Assembly: GCA_903848955.1 (NCBI GenBank)
Contig: CAINHS010000005.1
Location: forward strand, 1 to 50,154
Length of the DNA stretch: 50,154 nt
Source of the DNA: an uncultured beta proteobacterium
Lineage (GTDB): Bacteria; Pseudomonadota; Gammaproteobacteria; Burkholderiales; Rhodocyclaceae
Direction of reading: 5' to 3'
The notes below the pieces were generated by a model, which saw only the letters and a list, made by a program, of their open reading frames with translations, ran no database searches and was not told where the DNA came from. This document shows, one piece after another, positions 3,735-11,542 of this stretch. The position numbers and the translations under genes are program-made. Positions within the stretch are counted from its first letter, which is position 1. Each line of letters begins with the position of its first letter.

Positions 3735-4331
3735 ATGGCCGTACTCGTTGGCAAACCCGCCCCCGACTTCACTGCAAATGCTGTTTTCGGCAACAATGAA
3801 ATCAAGGAATTCAAGCTGTCCTCGCTCAAGGGCAAGCACGTCGTGCTGTTCTTCTACCCGCTCGACTTCACCTTTGTCTGTCCCTCGGAACTGATTGCCT
3901 TCGACCATCGCCTGGACGAATTCAAGAAGCGCGGCGTCGAAGTCGTCGGCTGCTCGATCGATTCCCAATTCACCCACCTGGCCTGGAAAAATACCCCTAT
4001 CAACAATGGCGGCATCGGTCAGGTGGGCTACCCCCTGGTGGCCGACATCAACCACGCCATCTGCCAGGCCTATGACGTCGAGGCTGCCGGCGGCGTGGCT
4101 TTCCGCGGTTCGTTCCTGATCGACAAGGCCGGCGTGGTGCAGCACCAGGTGGTGAATAACCTGCCGTTGGGCCGCGACATCGACGAAATGCTGCGCATGG
4201 TCGATGCCCTGCAATTCACCGAAGAACACGGCGAGGTTTGTCCCGCCGGCTGGCAGAAGGGCAAGAAGGGCATGAACGCCTCGACTGCCGGCGTCGCCAA
4301 ATACCTGGCCGAGAACGCCGCCGCGCTCTAA
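3735..4331 (+). CDS. Typical 2-Cys peroxiredoxin (AhpC/Prx1 class)
   Basis: The 198-aa product follows a GAGGAG ribosome site and an ATG. The peroxidatic Cys49 lies in [13 protein letters not shown] and the resolving Cys169 in EVCPAGW; together they mark a typical 2-Cys peroxiredoxin that reduces hydrogen peroxide and organic peroxides in the cytoplasm. A GGIG element is present around residues 92-95, but the C-terminus ends [10 protein letters not shown] without the YF motif that goes with sensitivity to over-oxidation, so a robust enzyme is expected. No ahpF lies beside it, so the reductant (thioredoxin or another AhpF/AhpD) is encoded elsewhere. It is monocistronic, with a strong terminator immediately downstream. 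Confidence 0.95.
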
Positions 4332-4350
4332 GCGGCGCCGCCCCGGCCGA

Positions 4351-4383
4351 AAGCCGCCCGCCCTCCGCGCGGCGGCTTTTTTT
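4351..4383 (+). terminator. Intrinsic terminator of the peroxiredoxin gene
   Basis: The arms AAGCCGCC and GGCGGCTT (4351-4358 and 4371-4378) flank a GC-rich loop and are followed by a T run to 4383. It starts 20 bases after the stop codon. Confidence 0.9.
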
Positions 4384-4385
4384 CG

Positions 4386-4486
4386 CCTGCCCGCGAAGCG
4401 GCGTCCCAGGCGGGCAGAGCCCTGCCTGCCCGCGAAGCGGCGTCCCAGGCGGTCAACGCCCTGCCTGCCCGATTCGGGCGGGTCGG
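4386..4486. repeat. Palindromic direct-repeat array
   Basis: A 28-base unit beginning CCTGCCCGCGAAGCGGCGTC occurs at 4386-4413 and again, identical, at 4425-4452, a 39-base period. A partial third copy follows (CCTGCCCGATTCGGGCGGG, about 4463-4481). Each unit carries short inverted repeats (CTGCCCG/CGGGCAG, CCCGATTCGGG), so it can fold. The remaining bases up to the cyclase-like gene at 4596 hold no gene I can support. The array resembles REP-type extragenic palindromes but I cannot assign it to a named family. Confidence 0.6.
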
Positions 4487-4595
4487 TATCCAGGGATATG
4501 TCCATCCGCCGTTATGCCTTTTCGATGCCGGAGTGATGACGAGCGCGCCCTCGACCGGCGCCGACACCGCGCCTGCCGCATGACATAATCAACCC

Positions 4596-6371
4596 ATGTT
4601 TCGCATCTCACGCGATCTTCTGATCGGCTTCCTGCTGGTGTGCGTCGCGGCCTGGGGGCTGATGTCCACCCGCACGCTGCGCTTCGCCGACCAGTCGCTC
4701 TACGATGCCCAGGCGCGCTGGCTGCGCGCCAACGCGCCGACGCCGCTGGCCCAGGATGTCGTCGTCATCGGCATCGATGAGGCTGCCTACGAATCCATCC
4801 CCGAGCCGACCGAACTCTGGCACATGCATCTTGGCGCGCTGCTGGCCGGCCTCTCCTCCGCCCAGCCGGCCGTGGTCGGGCTGGCGCTGCCGCTGCCGCT
4901 GCGCTCCTACGACTTTCTCGTCAAGGACATCGATTCCGCGCTGCTCTCCGGCATCTACCGGCTGCGCGGCGCGGCGCCTCTGGTGGTGGGCCAGCCGCCC
5001 GGCATCGGCGGCCGGCTGCGCCCCGTCTCGCCGGAACTGCTGGCCGCCATCGGCGAGGGGGCCGTGGCTTCGCTGGCCATCTGCGAGGATAGCGACGGTA
5101 CCGTGCGCCGCATCAACCAGACGCGCTGCCGCTCCGAAGACAAACAGGAACCGCTGGCCCTGGCGATGGCACGAAAGCTGGGGCGCCAGGGCTCGCCGAC
5201 CGGCATGATCGATTACAGCGTCGGCAGTGCCATCGAATACACCCCCGTCGGCACGGTGCTGGATTGGGTTCGCAAGGGCGACGAGGCGAAGCTGCGCGCT
5301 CTGGTCCAGGGCCGTGCGGTGGTGGTGGCCAACCTGCTGCCGACCGAAACCCGCCATCGCCTGCCGGTGCCGCTGGCCGCGTGGGAACCCGCCAGCCGCA
5401 CCGAGCCGGGCGCGGTGGCGCACATCCAGGCGCTGCGCTCGCTGCTCGGCCGCGGCCTGATCGAGCGCGTGCCGGAGAGCCTCTCGCTGTTCCTCGCCGG
5501 GCTGGCCGCCTTGCTCTGGTTCGGCCGCGGCGGCTGGATCAAGGTCATGGTGCTGGCCGCCGTCATCGGCGGGTTCGTCGCCGGCTCCACCTTCGCGCTC
5601 TGGCATGGCAACTATCTGCCGGTGGCGAACATCGTCATCGTTTCGCTGTTGGCCTTCGCCGCGCGCCAGGCATGGGACTTTATCCGCCGCTTTCACGAAA
5701 AGCAGACCTTGCGCACCATGTTCGCCGGCCACGTCAGCCCGCAGGTGATGCGCGCCCTGCTCGGCGGCGAACTGCAAGTCGAGCAGAACGGCCGGCGCCA
5801 GAGCGTGACGCTGCTTTTCGCCGGCATCCGCGGCTTCGCCGCGCGCAACGCGCAGTCCTCGCCCGAAGCCATGATCAGCCTGCTCAACCGTTTCCACGCC
5901 GCAGCCAGCGTGGCCGTGCAGAGCAACGGCGGCGCCGTGGAAAAATACGTCGGCGACGGCCTGATGGCGACTTTCGGCCTGCCGCAGCCCCTGCCCGCGC
6001 CGCAGCGCAGTGCGCTGGAAGCCGCCCAGGACTTGCTGCTGCGCATCGACGGGCTTAATGCCGCACTCGTGGCGGAGGGCATCGAAGCGCTGCAGGTCGG
6101 CATCGGCATTCACTGCGGCGAGGTACTCGCCGGCTACATCGGTTCGAGCCGGCGCCGCGAGTTTTCGGTGATAGGCGACGTTGTCGGCATCGCCAGCCGC
6201 CTCGAGGCCATGACCAAGGAATACGGCCGGCCGGTGATCTGCTCCGAGGAGGTGGCCGCCGCCGTGGGCTTCGCCGGCGGCATGGTCGATCTCGGCAGCG
6301 TGGCGGCCGGCATGCCCCGTATCTGGGGCTGGACCCCGCCGCTGACGGCGCCGCGCGGGGACGTCAGGTGA
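4596..6371 (+). CDS. CHASE2-domain protein with a degenerate class III nucleotide cyclase domain
   Basis: This 591-aa membrane protein has a helix at residues 7-25, an extracytoplasmic CHASE2-type sensor domain at about 30-290, two or three transmembrane helices at about 296-357, and a cytoplasmic class III cyclase domain at about 370-580. In the cyclase domain the second metal Asp is present (KYVGDGLMATFG, Asp454), as are Lys450 and Arg535. However, the first metal Asp of the FADIRGF motif is Gly410 (FAGIRGF), and the transition-state Asn of the GDTVNLAAR motif is Gly531 (GDVVGIASR). Catalysis is therefore doubtful and a regulatory or pseudo-cyclase role is possible. The stop overlaps the next gene (permease), so the protein belongs to the lipid-transport operon. 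ATG 4596 lacks a clear ribosome site. Confidence 0.85.
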   Translation: MFRISRDLLIGFLLVCVAAWGLMSTRTLRFADQSLYDAQARWLRANAPTPLAQDVVVIGIDEAAYESIPEPTELWHMHLGALLAGLSSAQPAVVGLALPLPLRSYDFLVKDIDSALLSGIYRLRGAAPLVVGQPPGIGGRLRPVSPELLAAIGEGAVASLAICEDSDGTVRRINQTRCRSEDKQEPLALAMARKLGRQGSPTGMIDYSVGSAIEYTPVGTVLDWVRKGDEAKLRALVQGRAVVVANLLPTETRHRLPVPLAAWEPASRTEPGAVAHIQALRSLLGRGLIERVPESLSLFLAGLAALLWFGRGGWIKVMVLAAVIGGFVAGSTFALWHGNYLPVANIVIVSLLAFAARQAWDFIRRFHEKQTLRTMFAGHVSPQVMRALLGGELQVEQNGRRQSVTLLFAGIRGFAARNAQSSPEAMISLLNRFHAAASVAVQSNGGAVEKYVGDGLMATFGLPQPLPAPQRSALEAAQDLLLRIDGLNAALVAEGIEALQVGIGIHCGEVLAGYIGSSRRREFSVIGDVVGIASRLEAMTKEYGRPVICSEEVAAAVGFAGGMVDLGSVAAGMPRIWGWTPPLTAPRGDVR

Positions 6372-7117
6372 GAGCTGCAGCCGGCAGCCGCATCGGCGCC
6401 TATCTCCATCTGGCCTGGTTCGCCGGCAGCCGTCATCGCCAACTGCGGCGACCGTTGCTGCGCGACCAGCTGCAGCGCCAGATCTACGGGGCCGGGGTCA
6501 CCGCGCTGCCGGTAATCGGCATACTGGCGCTGCTGACCGGCGCCGCAGTGACCACCCAGCTCTCGGCACTGACCGGCGCCGACAGCGATCTGACGCAGCG
6601 CATGATTTTTCTCGGCCTCTTTTTCGAACTGGCGCCGCTGCTGTCGGCGCTGGTGGTGGTGGCCCGCAGCAGCGCCGGCATTGCCTCCGAACTCGCGGTG
6701 ATGAACCTGCATGACGAATTCGTCACCCTGCGCCGGCTTGGAGTGCCCGCCGCGGACTTCCTGCTGCTGCCGCGCATCTTCGGTTTGATCATCGCCCTGC
6801 CGGCGGTGACCATCTGCTTTCAGGCCTTCGCCGTCGGCAGCGGCTGGCTGGCCACGGCCTTGTTCGAGGGCCGTCCGCTGGCCGAGACGGCGGCACGCTT
6901 CCTCGATTTCGCCGATCCCGGGCTGGCCTTGCTGAGCCTGGCCAAGAGCGCACTGACCGGTGCTGCGGTCGGCATCATCGCCTGTCACCACGGCAGCAGC
7001 GGCAAAGGTTCGACGCAGGCGATTTCCGGCGCCGCGATTCAGGCCGTGGGTACCGGGCTGATCGCCGTCTTCATGGTGGACGTCGCCTTTGCCGTGTTGC
7101 TCTACGCCCTCGGATGA
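6368..7117 (+). CDS. MlaE-type ABC permease of an MCE lipid transporter
   Basis: The 249-aa product starts with GTG at 6368, overlapping the preceding stop. It has an amphipathic N-terminus and about five hydrophobic segments. The family signature is visible: SSAGIASELAVMNLHDEF (about residues 98-115) corresponds to the MlaE cytoplasmic coupling helix, followed by LRRLGVPAADFLLLPRIFG. MlaE proteins form the membrane part of ABC systems that move phospholipids or other hydrophobic molecules across the envelope, with MlaF (ATPase) and MlaD (MCE ring). Here the next two genes are the MlaF- and MlaD-like partners. No STAS/MlaB gene or outer-membrane MlaA is nearby. The substrate is unknown. Confidence 0.88.
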   Translation: MRAAAGSRIGAYLHLAWFAGSRHRQLRRPLLRDQLQRQIYGAGVTALPVIGILALLTGAAVTTQLSALTGADSDLTQRMIFLGLFFELAPLLSALVVVARSSAGIASELAVMNLHDEFVTLRRLGVPAADFLLLPRIFGLIIALPAVTICFQAFAVGSGWLATALFEGRPLAETAARFLDFADPGLALLSLAKSALTGAAVGIIACHHGSSGKGSTQAISGAAIQAVGTGLIAVFMVDVAFAVLLYALG

Positions 7118-7743
7118 AGACCGCTGAAGCCCTGCAGGCCAGTGTCGCGGAGCGCCGGCTCTCGCTGTCCGCCGGCGGCTGTTTGCGCCTGATGCTGCCC
7201 CTCGACGAGGGCGGCCGCCATCGCCTGGTTGCCGGCGACGCCGCCGCAGCGCAGCGCGTGGTCGCGGCGCTGGAATGCTGCCCCGGCGTCGGCGTGCTGG
7301 CCGGCAGCGGCGGCCTCCTCGGTGCCATGACGGTGGCCGAGAATTTCGCGCTGGCGCTGCGTTATGACGCCGATGCCGATGATGTGCGCGACTGGGACCG
7401 CGAACTGGAGGCGGCCCTGCAGCTGTGCGGCCTGGCGCCTGAACGCATCGCCGCGCTGGGCCGCGAACGACCGATGAACATAGAACGCACCGAGCGCTGG
7501 ACGATAGGCTTTGTCCGCTGCCTGCTGCGCCCGCCCGAACTGCTGGTGATCGACCGCCTGTTCGCCGGCCTGCCGCGGCGTCAGGCCGATGCGCTGATCG
7601 CCGTGGAAGCCATCTACCACCGGCGCCATCCTTTCCGGCCGGTGCTGTTCGTCGACCTCGATAGCCATGAACTGCCGGCGCTGCCCGATTGTCGAACCCT
7701 GACCCGACTCGCCGAACCTGCGGAGACGCCATGCCACTGCTGA
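7114..7743 (+). CDS. Degenerate ABC-ATPase-like protein in MlaF position (no Walker A)
   Basis: The start ATG overlaps the permease stop (ATGA). The 209-aa product has the length and order of an MlaF ATPase but not its catalytic motifs. Where Walker A is expected there is LVAGDAAAAQRVVAALE, without the GK[ST] core. The region before LLRPPELLVIDRLFAGL has no LSGGQ. In the Walker B equivalent the Asp stays but the catalytic Glu is Arg, the D-loop Asp is gone (AGLPRR), and the H-loop reads FVDLD without His. The fold is still recognisable from LLGAMTVAENFALAL (Q-loop side) and the Walker B strand. Other frames hold no intact P-loop, so a simple frameshift does not explain this. ATP hydrolysis is unlikely; a structural role, or use of another ATPase, is inferred. 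Confidence 0.75.
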   Translation: MKTAEALQASVAERRLSLSAGGCLRLMLPLDEGGRHRLVAGDAAAAQRVVAALECCPGVGVLAGSGGLLGAMTVAENFALALRYDADADDVRDWDRELEAALQLCGLAPERIAALGRERPMNIERTERWTIGFVRCLLRPPELLVIDRLFAGLPRRQADALIAVEAIYHRRHPFRPVLFVDLDSHELPALPDCRTLTRLAEPAETPCHC

Positions 7744-8669
7744 CCGAACATGACGGCGATGCCGCCGCGCTGCGCCGCGGCAGTCGTCGCTTCCTTGTCT
7801 TTGCCGCGCTGGTGACGCTGGTCCTGCTCGCCGCCATCGTCGTGCGCCAGGGCCTGTTCCGCCAGACCACCAGCTACAGCTTCGTCGCCGATAGTGCCCA
7901 GGACATCGCCAAGGGCCAGGCCGTGCGCATCGCCGGTTTTCGCGTCGGCGCGGTGGCCGAAGTCAGGCTCAAGGACGACGGCCAGGTGGAGGTCAGCATG
8001 GAGATCGACGCCGACCAGATGCGCTTCGTCACCCATGACGCCCGGGTCGAACTGCGCAAGGAGGGCCTGGTCGGTTCGCCGACGCTGGAAATCGTACCCG
8101 GGCCGGACAAGACCCGGCTCGCCGCCGCCCAGGCCCGCTTGCAGTTCTCCCGCGCCGACGGCCTGACCGCGCTGGCCAACCAGGTGCGCGACGAATTCGT
8201 CCCCATCCTGAAGGACATCAAGGCCATCACCGGGGTACTGGCCGACCCGCAGCAAGGCGTGCCCGCCACGCTGGCCCGGATCCGGGAAAGTTCCGAGGCG
8301 CTGAAAATCCTGCTGGCCAACGGCAACCGCCAGGCCGACGCAATCGGCGCCGGCGCCGTCCGCGTGCTGGGCAAGGCGGAGGTCGATCTGGGTCACCTCG
8401 GCCAGACGCTGGAGAGCGCCAACAAGCGCCTGCCCGGCATGCTCGATCGCACGCAGCAGATGCTCGATCACGTCGAAAAAATCGCCGCCGAGGCCGAACT
8501 CAGCGTGCCGCCGGCCCTGCGCGACGGTAGCGCCGTCACCTCCGATGTGCGCGAGATTGTCAGCGGTGCGAAACAGGCCTGGCCGATCCGCAGCCTGATC
8601 GAGGCGCCGGCACCGGCGACGCTGAAGGCGGACAGCGACCTGCACGGGGAGGCCGGCCGTGGGCGCTAG
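7731..8669 (+). CDS. MCE-domain protein (MlaD type)
   Basis: ATG 7731 is preceded by GGAGA and overlaps the previous gene by 13 bases; a TTG start at 7689 is possible but less likely. The 312-aa product has one transmembrane helix at about residues 22-42, then an MCE domain at about 48-130 with the typical GQAVRIAGFRVGAVAEV strand pair, and a long helical C-terminal part (about 150-290) rich in Ala and Leu. MCE proteins form hexameric periplasmic rings or tubes anchored in the inner membrane that carry lipids between the membranes. The permease and ATPase-like partner are directly upstream and a lipoprotein directly downstream, so one envelope lipid-transport complex is likely. Confidence 0.88.
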   Translation: MPLLTEHDGDAAALRRGSRRFLVFAALVTLVLLAAIVVRQGLFRQTTSYSFVADSAQDIAKGQAVRIAGFRVGAVAEVRLKDDGQVEVSMEIDADQMRFVTHDARVELRKEGLVGSPTLEIVPGPDKTRLAAAQARLQFSRADGLTALANQVRDEFVPILKDIKAITGVLADPQQGVPATLARIRESSEALKILLANGNRQADAIGAGAVRVLGKAEVDLGHLGQTLESANKRLPGMLDRTQQMLDHVEKIAAEAELSVPPALRDGSAVTSDVREIVSGAKQAWPIRSLIEAPAPATLKADSDLHGEAGRGR

Positions 8670-9519
8670 GCTTCTGCTGATCGCGGCCCTGCTTCTCGCC
8701 GGCTGCAGTTCGGCGCCAAAAACTGCCGATCCGCCGCGTGTCAAGGCGGCGCTGGAAGCCGAAAGCGACGGCGCCAGGCGCTACGCCCGCGGCGATTACG
8801 CCGTGGCGGCGCGCCGCTTCGACGAGGCGGCGCGGATCTGCGCCAGCATCGATGACGCGCCGGGAGTCGGCCGCAACCGGCTGCATCTGGCCCGTGCCGA
8901 ACTGGCACAGGGTCGCGCCGAGGCCGCGCTGGCGGTTCTGGCTGCGGCCGCCGGCGACGGTGAAGGTCCCAGCCCCGGCATCCTGCTGACCATCGCCCAG
9001 GCGCAACTGGCGCTGGGTCGCGACGTCGCCGCGCAACAAAGCCTGGCGGCGGCCTCCGCCGGGTGCGGCAGTGCCTGCCCGCAGCTGCCAGGTCTGCGCC
9101 TGTTGCAGGCACGCGCCGCGCTCGCCGCGCAGCGTGCGCCGGAGGCACTGGCGCATGCCGAAGCCGCCCTGAAACTGTTGCAGGACATGGACGAGGCGGC
9201 CGAGACCGGCAACGCCTGGAGGATCATCGCCGCCGCGCGACTCGCCGCCGGCGACACCGCCGGCGCGTTGCCGGCCGCCGGCGCCGCGCTCGACATCGAC
9301 CGCCGGCTGGCACTGCCGGAAAAAATTGCCCGTGACTGGCTGCTGATCGGCGATATCCGGCGTCGCGCCGCTCCCGGCGACGCCCTGCGGCAGGATTCCG
9401 CGGCGGCTGCCTACCGGCGCGCACTGGACGTGGCGAACGCCGCCGGCCTGGCCGCTATCGCGACCACCGCGACGCAGGCGCTTGCCGATACCGGCGGTGC
9501 CGCAGAGGCGGCCAGATAG
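8659..9519 (+). CDS. Lipoprotein with TPR-like helical repeats, MCE operon
   Basis: GTG 8659, preceded by GGGGAGG, overlaps the MCE gene by 11 bases. The 286-aa product begins with a lipoprotein signal peptide and lipobox LLLAGC, with Cys16 as the expected lipidation site. There is no Asp at +2 (CSS), so sorting to the outer membrane is expected. The rest is Ala-rich amphipathic helices in a TPR-like pattern (for example ARRYARGDYAVAARRFDEAA and ARAELAQGRAEAALAVLAAA). MCE operons often end in a PqiC/ABC-auxiliary lipoprotein; this protein takes that place but I see no PqiC signature. A role as an outer-membrane or partner-binding component of the lipid transporter is inferred from the operon only. 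Confidence 0.8.
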   Translation: MGARLLLIAALLLAGCSSAPKTADPPRVKAALEAESDGARRYARGDYAVAARRFDEAARICASIDDAPGVGRNRLHLARAELAQGRAEAALAVLAAAAGDGEGPSPGILLTIAQAQLALGRDVAAQQSLAAASAGCGSACPQLPGLRLLQARAALAAQRAPEALAHAEAALKLLQDMDEAAETGNAWRIIAAARLAAGDTAGALPAAGAALDIDRRLALPEKIARDWLLIGDIRRRAAPGDALRQDSAAAAYRRALDVANAAGLAAIATTATQALADTGGAAEAAR

Positions 9520-9649
9520 CTCTGCGCTTTCTTGCCGGCGACCCCGCCGCAAGCGCCGGAGCTGCGGACGCGATATCATGACAATGTCGGCGGCGTAGCG
9601 GCTACCGTCGCGGCCACCGTGGCGCAACCCTGACCCGACTCCAATCATC

Positions 9650-11542
9650 ATGCTCGAACAAGCCCATTTCATCGAACTCAAGGCCAGTGGCAACCTGCCG
9701 TCACCCAAGGGCCCGGCGCTCCGGGTGATTGAACTATGCCAGAGCGATAACGTAACCCTGCCCGAAATCATCCAGGTATTGCAGGTCGATCCGGCGACGG
9801 TCGGCCGCATCCTCAAGCTGGCCAATTCCGTTGCTTTCGGCCGACCGCGGCCGACGGTGGCGCTCACGCCCGACGTCCTGATGTCGATAGGAATCCAGTC
9901 CGTGCGTCAGGTGGTGCTGGCGTTTTCGCTGGTGTCAGGCAATCGGCGCGGACGCTGTCCCGGTTTCGACTACGAGTTTTTCTGGTCGCACTCCGCGGCC
10001 ACCGGTGTCGCCAATCAACTCCTCGGCGCGGCAACCCGGGCGGCGCCACCCGCCGAATTGTTTACCATCGGCCTGCTGGCCAATGTCGGGCGGCTGGCGC
10101 TGGCGGCGCTCTACCCGGAGCGTTACGGCGAGCTGCTGGCAAAAGCCGGCGGGCAGTTCGCTGCCGCGCTCACCGAGTTGGAAAAGGGGGAATTCGGCTA
10201 CAGCCACCTCGACGTTGCCGCCGCCATGATGCGCGACTGGGGCCTGCCCAAGCTGTTTACCGATGCCGTGCTGTTCCATGAAACGCCGGATCTCGCCGAT
10301 TCCGGCCCGGACTCGCGCAGCACGCGGCTGGTCAATTGCCTGCACCTGGGGGAGGGCATGGCGGACCTCTGTTTCGTGCCGCAGGCTGAGCGCGGCGATG
10401 CATTCAAGAAGCTCCTGCCGCTGGCGCAGAAACTCGGTGTTGGCGACAGCAGCCTCGCCGCGCTGGGCGATCAGATGTTGCGCGAATGGTCGGAATGGAG
10501 TGCGCTGCTGCAAATCACCGTGCATCAGGTGGCGCCCTTTTCCTCGCTCGATGTCATTGCCGAGAATGCCCTCGCTGCAGCCGGCGTGGACTTGAAACAG
10601 TTGTCGATCCTGGTCGTCGTTGGCGATCCTGGCGCGCGCCGCATGCTGCAGGAACTTCTCAGTGCTGCCGGCCATGCGGTGCATGTCGCGCGCGACGGTC
10701 ATGAGGGGCTGGCGCAGGCCCTGCAACTTCAACCGCAACTGGTCATTACCGATCTGCTGATGCCGCGTCAGGACAGCCTGCAACTCATCAAGAGCCTGCG
10801 CCAGACGGAGTTTGGCCGCTCGATTTACATCATCGTACTGGTCAATGCCGACGATGACGAAATACTGACCGAAGCCTTCGATCTCGGCGCCGACGACTAC
10901 ATCACCCGGCCGGTGGATGGCAAGGTGCTCCAGGCGCGCCTCAAGGCCAGCAAGCGCATCATCAACGAGCAGCAGTTGCTGCGGCAGGAACAGGAGGAGT
11001 TGCGGCGCGCCTTGCTGCAACTTTCCATTGCCAACCAGCGCGCCCAGGAGGCGGCGCTCACCGACGTCCTGACCGGCCTCTACAACCGCCGTCATGCCAT
11101 GGAACGGCTGGCGCAGGAGTGGGCCGAAGCCGAGCGCGGCCATCGGCCGCTGTCAATCCTGTCGCTGGATGTCGACCACTTCAAGGAGGTCAATGACAAC
11201 CACGGCCACGATGTCGGCGATGCCGCGTTGTGCCAGTTCGCCGCCATACTGCGCGCCTTCTCGCGCGCGCCTGACGTGCCGTGCCGCTTCGGCGGCGAGG
11301 AGTTTCTGATGATCGCCCCGGATACCTCGCTGAGTGGCGCAATGCTGTTGGCCGAGCGGATCCGTTCGGCGGTTCAGCACACGGTTCTCATTGGCAACGA
11401 TGCCTCCCTGCATCTGACGGTGAGCATCGGTGTCGCGGAAAAGTCGTCGAAGCATGCCAGCCTGGATCAGCTCATCAAATCCGCTGACGAGGCGCTTTAC
11501 CGGGCCAAGCAGAACGGCCGCAACCGGGTCGAGAAAAGCTAG
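9650..11542 (+). CDS. HDOD-REC-GGDEF signalling protein (diguanylate cyclase)
   Basis: This 630-aa soluble protein has an N-terminal HDOD domain (about residues 13-215), a receiver domain (about 318-438), a helical linker and a GGDEF domain (about 466-628). The active site reads GGEEF at 548-552, a functional variant, and an RxxD inhibitory site (RAPD, 539-542) lies five residues upstream, so c-di-GMP synthesis with product feedback is expected. The receiver keeps the phospho-acceptor Asp368 (LVITDLLMP) but has GD in place of the acidic pair, Asn at the usual Thr, and Arg420 in place of the conserved Lys (YITRP), so normal phosphorylation switching is uncertain. It stands alone after the MCE operon with a 130-base gap. 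Confidence 0.92.
   Translation: MLEQAHFIELKASGNLPSPKGPALRVIELCQSDNVTLPEIIQVLQVDPATVGRILKLANSVAFGRPRPTVALTPDVLMSIGIQSVRQVVLAFSLVSGNRRGRCPGFDYEFFWSHSAATGVANQLLGAATRAAPPAELFTIGLLANVGRLALAALYPERYGELLAKAGGQFAAALTELEKGEFGYSHLDVAAAMMRDWGLPKLFTDAVLFHETPDLADSGPDSRSTRLVNCLHLGEGMADLCFVPQAERGDAFKKLLPLAQKLGVGDSSLAALGDQMLREWSEWSALLQITVHQVAPFSSLDVIAENALAAAGVDLKQLSILVVVGDPGARRMLQELLSAAGHAVHVARDGHEGLAQALQLQPQLVITDLLMPRQDSLQLIKSLRQTEFGRSIYIIVLVNADDDEILTEAFDLGADDYITRPVDGKVLQARLKASKRIINEQQLLRQEQEELRRALLQLSIANQRAQEAALTDVLTGLYNRRHAMERLAQEWAEAERGHRPLSILSLDVDHFKEVNDNHGHDVGDAALCQFAAILRAFSRAPDVPCRFGGEEFLMIAPDTSLSGAMLLAERIRSAVQHTVLIGNDASLHLTVSIGVAEKSSKHASLDQLIKSADEALYRAKQNGRNRVEKS

Follow-up and report, generated by a model that had tools for sequence, protein, structure and literature searches.

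The window analysed here, a 50,154-nucleotide stretch of contig CAINHS010000005.1 (GenBank assembly GCA_903848955.1) from an uncultured betaproteobacterium of the Rhodocyclaceae related to Sulfuritalea, carries an operon of MCE-type lipid-transport genes in which the ABC-like subunit is, judging by its sequence, a conserved pseudo-ATPase. We consider the chances evenly balanced that this is an MCE-type envelope system in which the ATPase was replaced long ago, throughout a clade, by a structural pseudo-ATPase, giving a conduit that works without ATP hydrolysis. The five overlapping open reading frames were verified at 4596-6371, 6368-7117, 7114-7743, 7731-8669 and 8659-9519, and the overlapping five-gene unit described in an earlier note on this DNA was thereby confirmed in all its frames and overlaps. 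The domain order given in that note (CHASE2/cyclase, MlaE, ABC-like, MCE, TPR-like lipoprotein) agrees with the Pfam matches, which are CHASE2 and Guanylate_cyc for the first gene, MlaE for the second, MlaD/MCE for the fourth and a weak TPR match below the curated cut-offs for the fifth, while the ABC-like protein of 209 residues has none. Domains of MlaB/STAS, MlaC and the DUF330 lipoprotein were not found in the five window proteins by Pfam at E <= 0.1.

The ABC-derived protein and its lost motifs

The third gene and the places of its former ATPase motifs are as follows.
7114-7743, + strand: ABC-derived pseudo-ATPase, 209 residues (motif alignment, profile searches, AlphaFold, Foldseek)
7225-7263, + strand: former Walker A region, about residues 38-50, without a P-loop
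7471-7500, + strand: former signature region, PMNIERTERW, without LSGG (motif alignment)
7552-7557, + strand: Walker B, with Asp147 retained and Arg148 at the glutamate position (motif alignment)
7645-7668, + strand: former H-loop region, without the switch histidine at its place (motif alignment)

Walker A, the signature, the Walker B glutamate and the H-loop histidine are thus all gone from the window copy, as the earlier note had observed. Neither Walker A nor the signature nor the Walker B glutamate is at its place in any of 58 copies, 26 of them from the window's family and 32 from a second family of the order, f24 (27 plus five further copies; two of the first 53 duplicate others). Chance patterns were set aside by eye, namely STHS near the N-terminus of L131, an LSGG that in L178 precedes the Walker A position, an LSGG of L267 lying in the lead-in to the protein and a DE of L271 four residues past the Walker B aspartate. 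Among 25 comparison ATPases partnered with MlaE, a non-random draw consisting of the next-best permease matches and five from other loci, Walker A and the signature were each present in 25 and the Walker B glutamate in 24.

An AlphaFold model of the protein, built with 17 sequences, reached a pLDDT of 74 and a pTM of 0.74. Foldseek with this model of moderate quality returned 606 matches at E <= 0.001, and the best 50 of the 606 are, by title, ABC ATPases or complexes containing them. The top six are chains of LolCDE, FtsEX-EnvC, the maltose transporter, MlaFEDB (7d06_B; 1.4e-06, TMq 0.55), MetNI and Mce1 (8fed_H), with TMq 0.55-0.63 and a root-mean-square deviation of 5-7. A profile search against PDB sequences points the same way (CmpD at 6.6e-10 and Pseudomonas MlaF at 2e-07), and the top NCBIfam match is FtsE at 4.9e-05, with 23 bits against a cut-off of 265. 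Since the model matches ABC ATPases including MlaF, the predicted assignment as ABC-derived holds. The protein has the ABC fold and lacks the motifs for ATP binding and hydrolysis.

Distribution, gene order and selection

A pattern scan of a species-genome collection with the 209-residue protein gave 16 loci at 65-82% identity, deposited as Rhodocyclales, Rhodocyclaceae, Sulfuritalea, Sulfurisoma, Burkholderiaceae or betaproteobacterial metagenome-assembled genomes. The pseudo-ATPases of two of them, L007 and L011 (the latter from a Sulfuritalea sp.), are identical to those of G399 and G506 of the window's genus. All 16 have the same five-gene order, the cyclase being absent only at a contig start (L006, L008, L009). 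Ratios of nonsynonymous to synonymous substitution rates (dN/dS), taken from seven to nine chosen close pairs per gene, were 0.06-0.32 for the pseudo-ATPase (nine pairs), similar to its neighbours: 0.08-0.25 for the permease, 0.09-0.24 for the MCE protein, 0.13-0.26 for the cyclase and 0.18-0.34 for the TPR lipoprotein. All five genes are under purifying selection. The check proposed in the earlier note, for conserved losses under purifying selection, therefore came out in favour of a real system, with the ATPase losses shared across two families.

In the window's family the pseudo-ATPase occurs in 10 of 150 genomes (E <= 8.5e-30), and the next match, at 6.9e-9, is an intact ATPase (L095). It occurs in 32 of 80 genomes of f24 (E <= 5.2e-29), again followed by an intact ATPase (7.8e-15, L159). 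When 399 genomes were drawn evenly from the order, the confirmed carriers were the window's own genome and five of f24, and no pseudo-ATPase match came from twelve further genomes of the window's family that the draw contained.

Near the window, then, the five-gene order given in the earlier note recurs without exception, but the distant family f24 has other orders. There we found ABC-MCE-TPR-cyclase-permease (L057, L058, L059, L165, L166), ABC-MCE-TPR-permease (L056, L156) and permease-ABC-MCE-TPR without a cyclase (L060, L150-L154, L158, L164). In L160-L162 a TPR gene precedes the permease, and within the fetched stretches no permease was found in L157 and no TPR gene in L167. From these f24 orders, with and without the cyclase, we conclude that the core consists of permease, pseudo-ATPase, MCE protein and TPR lipoprotein, and that the CHASE2-cyclase is accessory. 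The sensor is consequently not the fixed part that the earlier note took it to be, being missing beside the core in several relatives and differently placed in others.

Graded motif loss in the wider class

Searching 369 genomes of the class with the pseudo-ATPase recovered, besides the window's own copy, ABC proteins of G580, G837, G720 and G768 at 5.6e-15 or better, all without a P-loop and with the Walker B glutamate kept in G837 and G768. That of G746 (7e-13) keeps the P-loop GEHGAGKS and has lost the signature, the Walker B glutamate and the histidine. Over ten wider-class ABC copies, Walker A was present in two, the signature in one (by chance) and the Walker B glutamate in three. Another 24 class loci (L106-L129, E of about 1e-12 to 1e-11) have an MlaE neighbour in 11 cases, of which ten keep all patterns and L112 is without the signature and H-loop patterns.

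A permease profile was run over 274 class genomes and its best 30 loci were covered. Beside none of the ten best loci, the window's own included, is there a neighbour with full motifs: six have no pattern in place, G746 keeps the P-loop, G577 (L176) is without the signature only, the LSGG of G661 is a chance match, and the ATPase gene of G768 lies outside the flank, on another contig. The neighbours of the next 20 permeases all have Walker A and the signature. From the absence of the motifs in all 58 copies, together with degenerate ATPases beside the best permeases and intact ones beside the next 20, the predicted loss of ATPase function marks an old clade and not decay in one strain. The loci L176-L180 and L112 are further class MlaE permeases with ABC neighbours at various stages of motif loss.

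The permease

6368-7117, + strand: MlaE-type permease, 249 residues (PF02405, 6.4e-37, 127.6 bits against a cut-off of 22.5)
6695-6775, + strand: segment with the retained E..L..LG(V/I) motif, likely the coupling helix by inferred placement

No STAS domain was found in this permease. In MlaE, according to PMC7790496, the coupling helix between transmembrane segments TM2 and TM3 binds MlaF. An E..L..LG(V/I)-like motif is retained in the permeases of the pseudo-ATPase systems, with some variation in class members, and is probably located at the coupling helix. In a tree of 71 permeases, the 36 rows of the window's family and f24 form one clade (96/98) and the 25 permeases with intact ATPases a separate one (95/88), with G746 weakly adjoining (55/16). 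The tree, which is midpoint-rooted and has several long branches, is compatible with a single ATPase loss and does not prove it. Besides the operon, the window's own genome has MlaE permeases accompanied by MCE genes at two places, C7 and C20, where the adjoining ATPases are motif-intact.

The CHASE2-cyclase and caspase-domain genes

4596-6371, + strand: protein with CHASE2 and class III cyclase domains, 591 residues (PF05226, 1e-16; PF00211, 1.3e-20), predicted to be catalytically dead
5823-5825, + strand: first metal aspartate position of the cyclase, Gly410 (residue alignment)
6186-6188, + strand: asparagine position of the cyclase, Gly531 (residue alignment)

Using motif positions that we take from general knowledge of class III cyclases, we verified both substitutions that the earlier note had pointed out, of a metal aspartate and of the transition-state asparagine. 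The second metal aspartate and the arginine are retained, and the protein lacks the full set of two metal aspartates, asparagine and arginine that characterises an active class III cyclase. Among 24 operon-linked cyclases the first metal aspartate is retained in seven and the asparagine in three, and all six checked residues are retained in two, L098 (G460, of the window's genus) and L155 (of another family). From these counts we consider that the ancestral cyclase probably had activity, which was lost more than once while the domain was kept. Elsewhere in the window's genome, the CHASE2 cyclase L053/L169 retains all six residues and L055/L170 does not; a CHASE2 search of that genome gave three places and is an undercount, because the window's own copy is not among them.

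The operon of two pseudoenzymes put forward in the earlier note is therefore upheld for the ATPase, without its motifs in all 58 copies, and not for the cyclase, intact in L098 and L155. That note had named intact motifs in close relatives as evidence against its reading, and they were found for the cyclase (L098) and not for the ATPase. A definition of the system by two pseudoenzymes was accordingly dropped, and the predicted inactivation of the cyclase is regarded as something that has recurred in particular lineages, in a gene that is only accessory.

Other genes join the unit in some relatives. At two loci, L093 and L094, the pseudo-ATPase adjoins a caspase/DUF4384 protein and a CHASE2 protein lacking a cyclase hit, which in L093 stand between the pseudo-ATPase and the permease, and L098 has such cyclase-less CHASE2 and caspase/DUF4384 proteins in addition to its CHASE2-cyclase. 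In G950 (L168, L155), caspase/FGE and DUF4384 genes, two CHAT/TPR genes and a further two with caspase domains lie between permease and pseudo-ATPase. The long L098 frame starts inside the permease gene, and rows that for this reason matched permease/ABC regions of other loci were dropped from its phmmer search. The profile count over 38 loci found no caspase-domain gene in the window. As separate observations, the pseudo-ATPase MCE core of G950 is embedded in a large group of genes of the caspase, CHAT/TPR, FGE-sulfatase and DUF4384 kinds, and convergent caspase-domain genes lie about 1-2 kb past the TPR gene in L011, L014, L017, L018 and L098. A defence system is not claimed, PADLOC having matched the window's first gene only as a cyclase (PycC) and a protein of one relative as a caspase.

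The MCE protein, the lipoprotein and the surroundings of the operon

7731-8669, + strand: MCE protein, 312 residues, one MCE domain followed by about 180 residues (PF02470, 3.6e-15, 56.4 bits against a cut-off of 25.1)
7866-8102, + strand: MCE domain (domain search)
8659-9519, + strand: TPR-type lipoprotein, 286 residues (TPR_19, 3.1e-05, just under the cut-off)
8695-8706, + strand: lipobox LAGC with serine at +2 (sequence; Cys16 invariant in 15 aligned rows)
4581-4589, + strand: extended -10 box TGaCATAAT, the sole promoter-like match in 4250-9800 (stretch from box to ATG, 4581-4598)

The AlphaFold model of the MCE protein is poor (pLDDT 39), and in it the tail of about 180 residues is perhaps mostly helical. 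A lipobox pattern is present in 20 of 23 further frames of the TPR lipoprotein. With serine at +2, the window's lipoprotein is presumably sorted to the outer membrane by the +2 rule. In the window and 13 related loci holding the cyclase start, TGnCATAAT is followed by exactly six nucleotides and the cyclase ATG (14/14), and the upstream DNA is otherwise diverged around the shared box. Because the box sits at this fixed distance, the transcript is predicted to start at the A of the cyclase ATG and so to be leaderless. Upstream of the operon lies a gene for an AhpC/TSA-family peroxiredoxin (3735-4331), and directly downstream one for a protein with HDOD, response-regulator and GGDEF domains (9650-11542).

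Discussion

Evolution has kept a motor-like protein without the working parts known for such motors, from which we conclude that the system probably draws its power, or is controlled, in another way than the ATP-driven kind. Several points weigh against a conduit without ATP hydrolysis. That these proteins bind one another and move lipid is a prediction from genes and models, and the model of the MCE protein is too poor to serve as support for a needle. Long branches, including L062 and L160/L162, may have met in the midpoint-rooted permease tree. In the wider class L176 is without the signature only (LSQHQ by eye), L167 has a P-loop, L161 and L163 retain the Walker B glutamate and L177 and L180 retain remnants, and since motif loss is graded in this way, some members may still bind or hydrolyse ATP. 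Finally, MlaF-like ATPases were found beside another MlaE in all ten carrier genomes checked.

This last finding bears on an alternative that we regard as unlikely, in which the permease is driven by an active MlaF-type ATPase encoded elsewhere, with the pseudo-ATPase serving as a regulator or as the second half of a mixed dimer. MceG in mycobacteria offers a comparison, and the retained coupling motif of the permease would suit such an arrangement. An MlaF paralogue encoded away from MlaE genes is present in nine of ten chosen carriers (L214-L222), where all nine copies keep Walker A, the signature and Walker B and have tyrosine for the H-loop histidine, but the search of the window's own genome did not find one. 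Among f24 genomes 16 of the 32 carriers have it, as do 15 of the 48 non-carriers (Fisher p = 0.11), and in the window's family six of ten carriers have it. Some of the carriers that lack it are 99-100% complete. The paralogue was therefore rejected as a dedicated motor and is not an obligate partner. It also speaks against a borrowed motor that the canonical MlaF adjoins its own MlaE in the ten genomes, though this MlaF may be shared.

Improbable in our estimate is a role of the MlaE, pseudo-ATPase and MCE proteins as a sensor of envelope lipid that reports through the CHASE2-cyclase or, in relatives, through caspase/CHAT-type proteases. CHASE2 proteins belong to the unit in both families, and the intact cyclases of L098 and L155 fit signalling, but most of the cyclases are without catalytic residues and in many relatives no CHASE2-cyclase stands beside the core. 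Caspase-domain genes are inside the unit in L093, L094, L098 and L155; they were seen in the fetched stretch of nine of 38 loci and not in the other 29, a count which has no background rate for comparison and favours its own loci, because the profile was built from eight of the nine positive loci (all but L157) and L168. That the genes are decaying in this strain only, or that the assembly is at fault, can hardly be credited. One might cite the lost catalytic residues and the many metagenome assemblies, but open frames, gene order and motif losses recur across many independent genomes, 58 copies in all for the losses, with dN/dS well below 1.

Under the reading of a conduit built on a pseudo-ATPase, two pseudo-ATPase subunits would dock on the coupling segment of an MlaE dimer as MlaF does, yet would only hold or gate it, and an MCE ring with its tail would bridge the periplasm together with the outer-membrane TPR lipoprotein. 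No ATP would be hydrolysed at this transporter, and lipid would either follow a gradient or be driven from another site, comparably to Pqi/Let. The CHASE2-cyclase protein would act as a periplasmic sensor that controls how the machine is gated or assembled. Signalling by its cyclase domain may persist in some relatives, while in most that domain would now serve only for nucleotide binding or dimerisation.

With the actinobacterial Mce systems, which use MceG in trans, the window unit shares a permease operon without a cognate active ATPase gene, but theirs simply has no ATPase gene and the window has a conserved dead one. Like other CHASE2 class III cyclases, the first gene joins a CHASE2 sensor to a cyclase domain; unlike them, it is without the first metal aspartate and the asparagine and is joined to an MCE operon. 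The Mla/Mpc systems (MlaFEDB; Brucella MpcEFDA, PMC12436622) have in common with it an MlaE permease, an ABC-like subunit, a single-domain MCE protein and the coupling motif, whereas the window's ABC subunit is without ATP motifs and shortened to about 209 residues, a TPR lipoprotein replaces MlaC/MlaB or the DUF330 lipoprotein, no STAS domain was found and a CHASE2-cyclase is in the operon. Pqi and Let lack an ATPase domain (PMC12436622, PMC5561183); they share an MCE protein, an inner-membrane partner and the want of a working ATPase of their own, which for the window is a prediction. PqiA/LetA, however, belong to another membrane family, where the window has MlaE with a retained pseudo-ATPase, and they have three or seven MCE domains against one. 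Titles and abstracts of the open-licence literature gave nothing on MCE operons with a dead ATPase, on CHASE2 with MlaE and adenylate cyclase, or on CHASE2 with caspase.

More tentatively, early loss of ATP hydrolysis may have given an envelope-spanning conduit or sensor in which CHASE2 cyclases, and in some relatives caspase/CHAT proteases, gate the MlaE/pseudo-ATPase core. If that were true, such a signalling-run system would be a third energetic class of MCE machinery beside ATP-driven Mla and Pqi/Let, the latter having had no ATPase at any time. Domain annotation is likely to overlook the system, since the window's pseudo-ATPase has no Pfam match. A motor shell that is dead and long kept within an MlaE/MCE machine would offer a direct test of whether ATP hydrolysis serves lipid movement itself or only gating.

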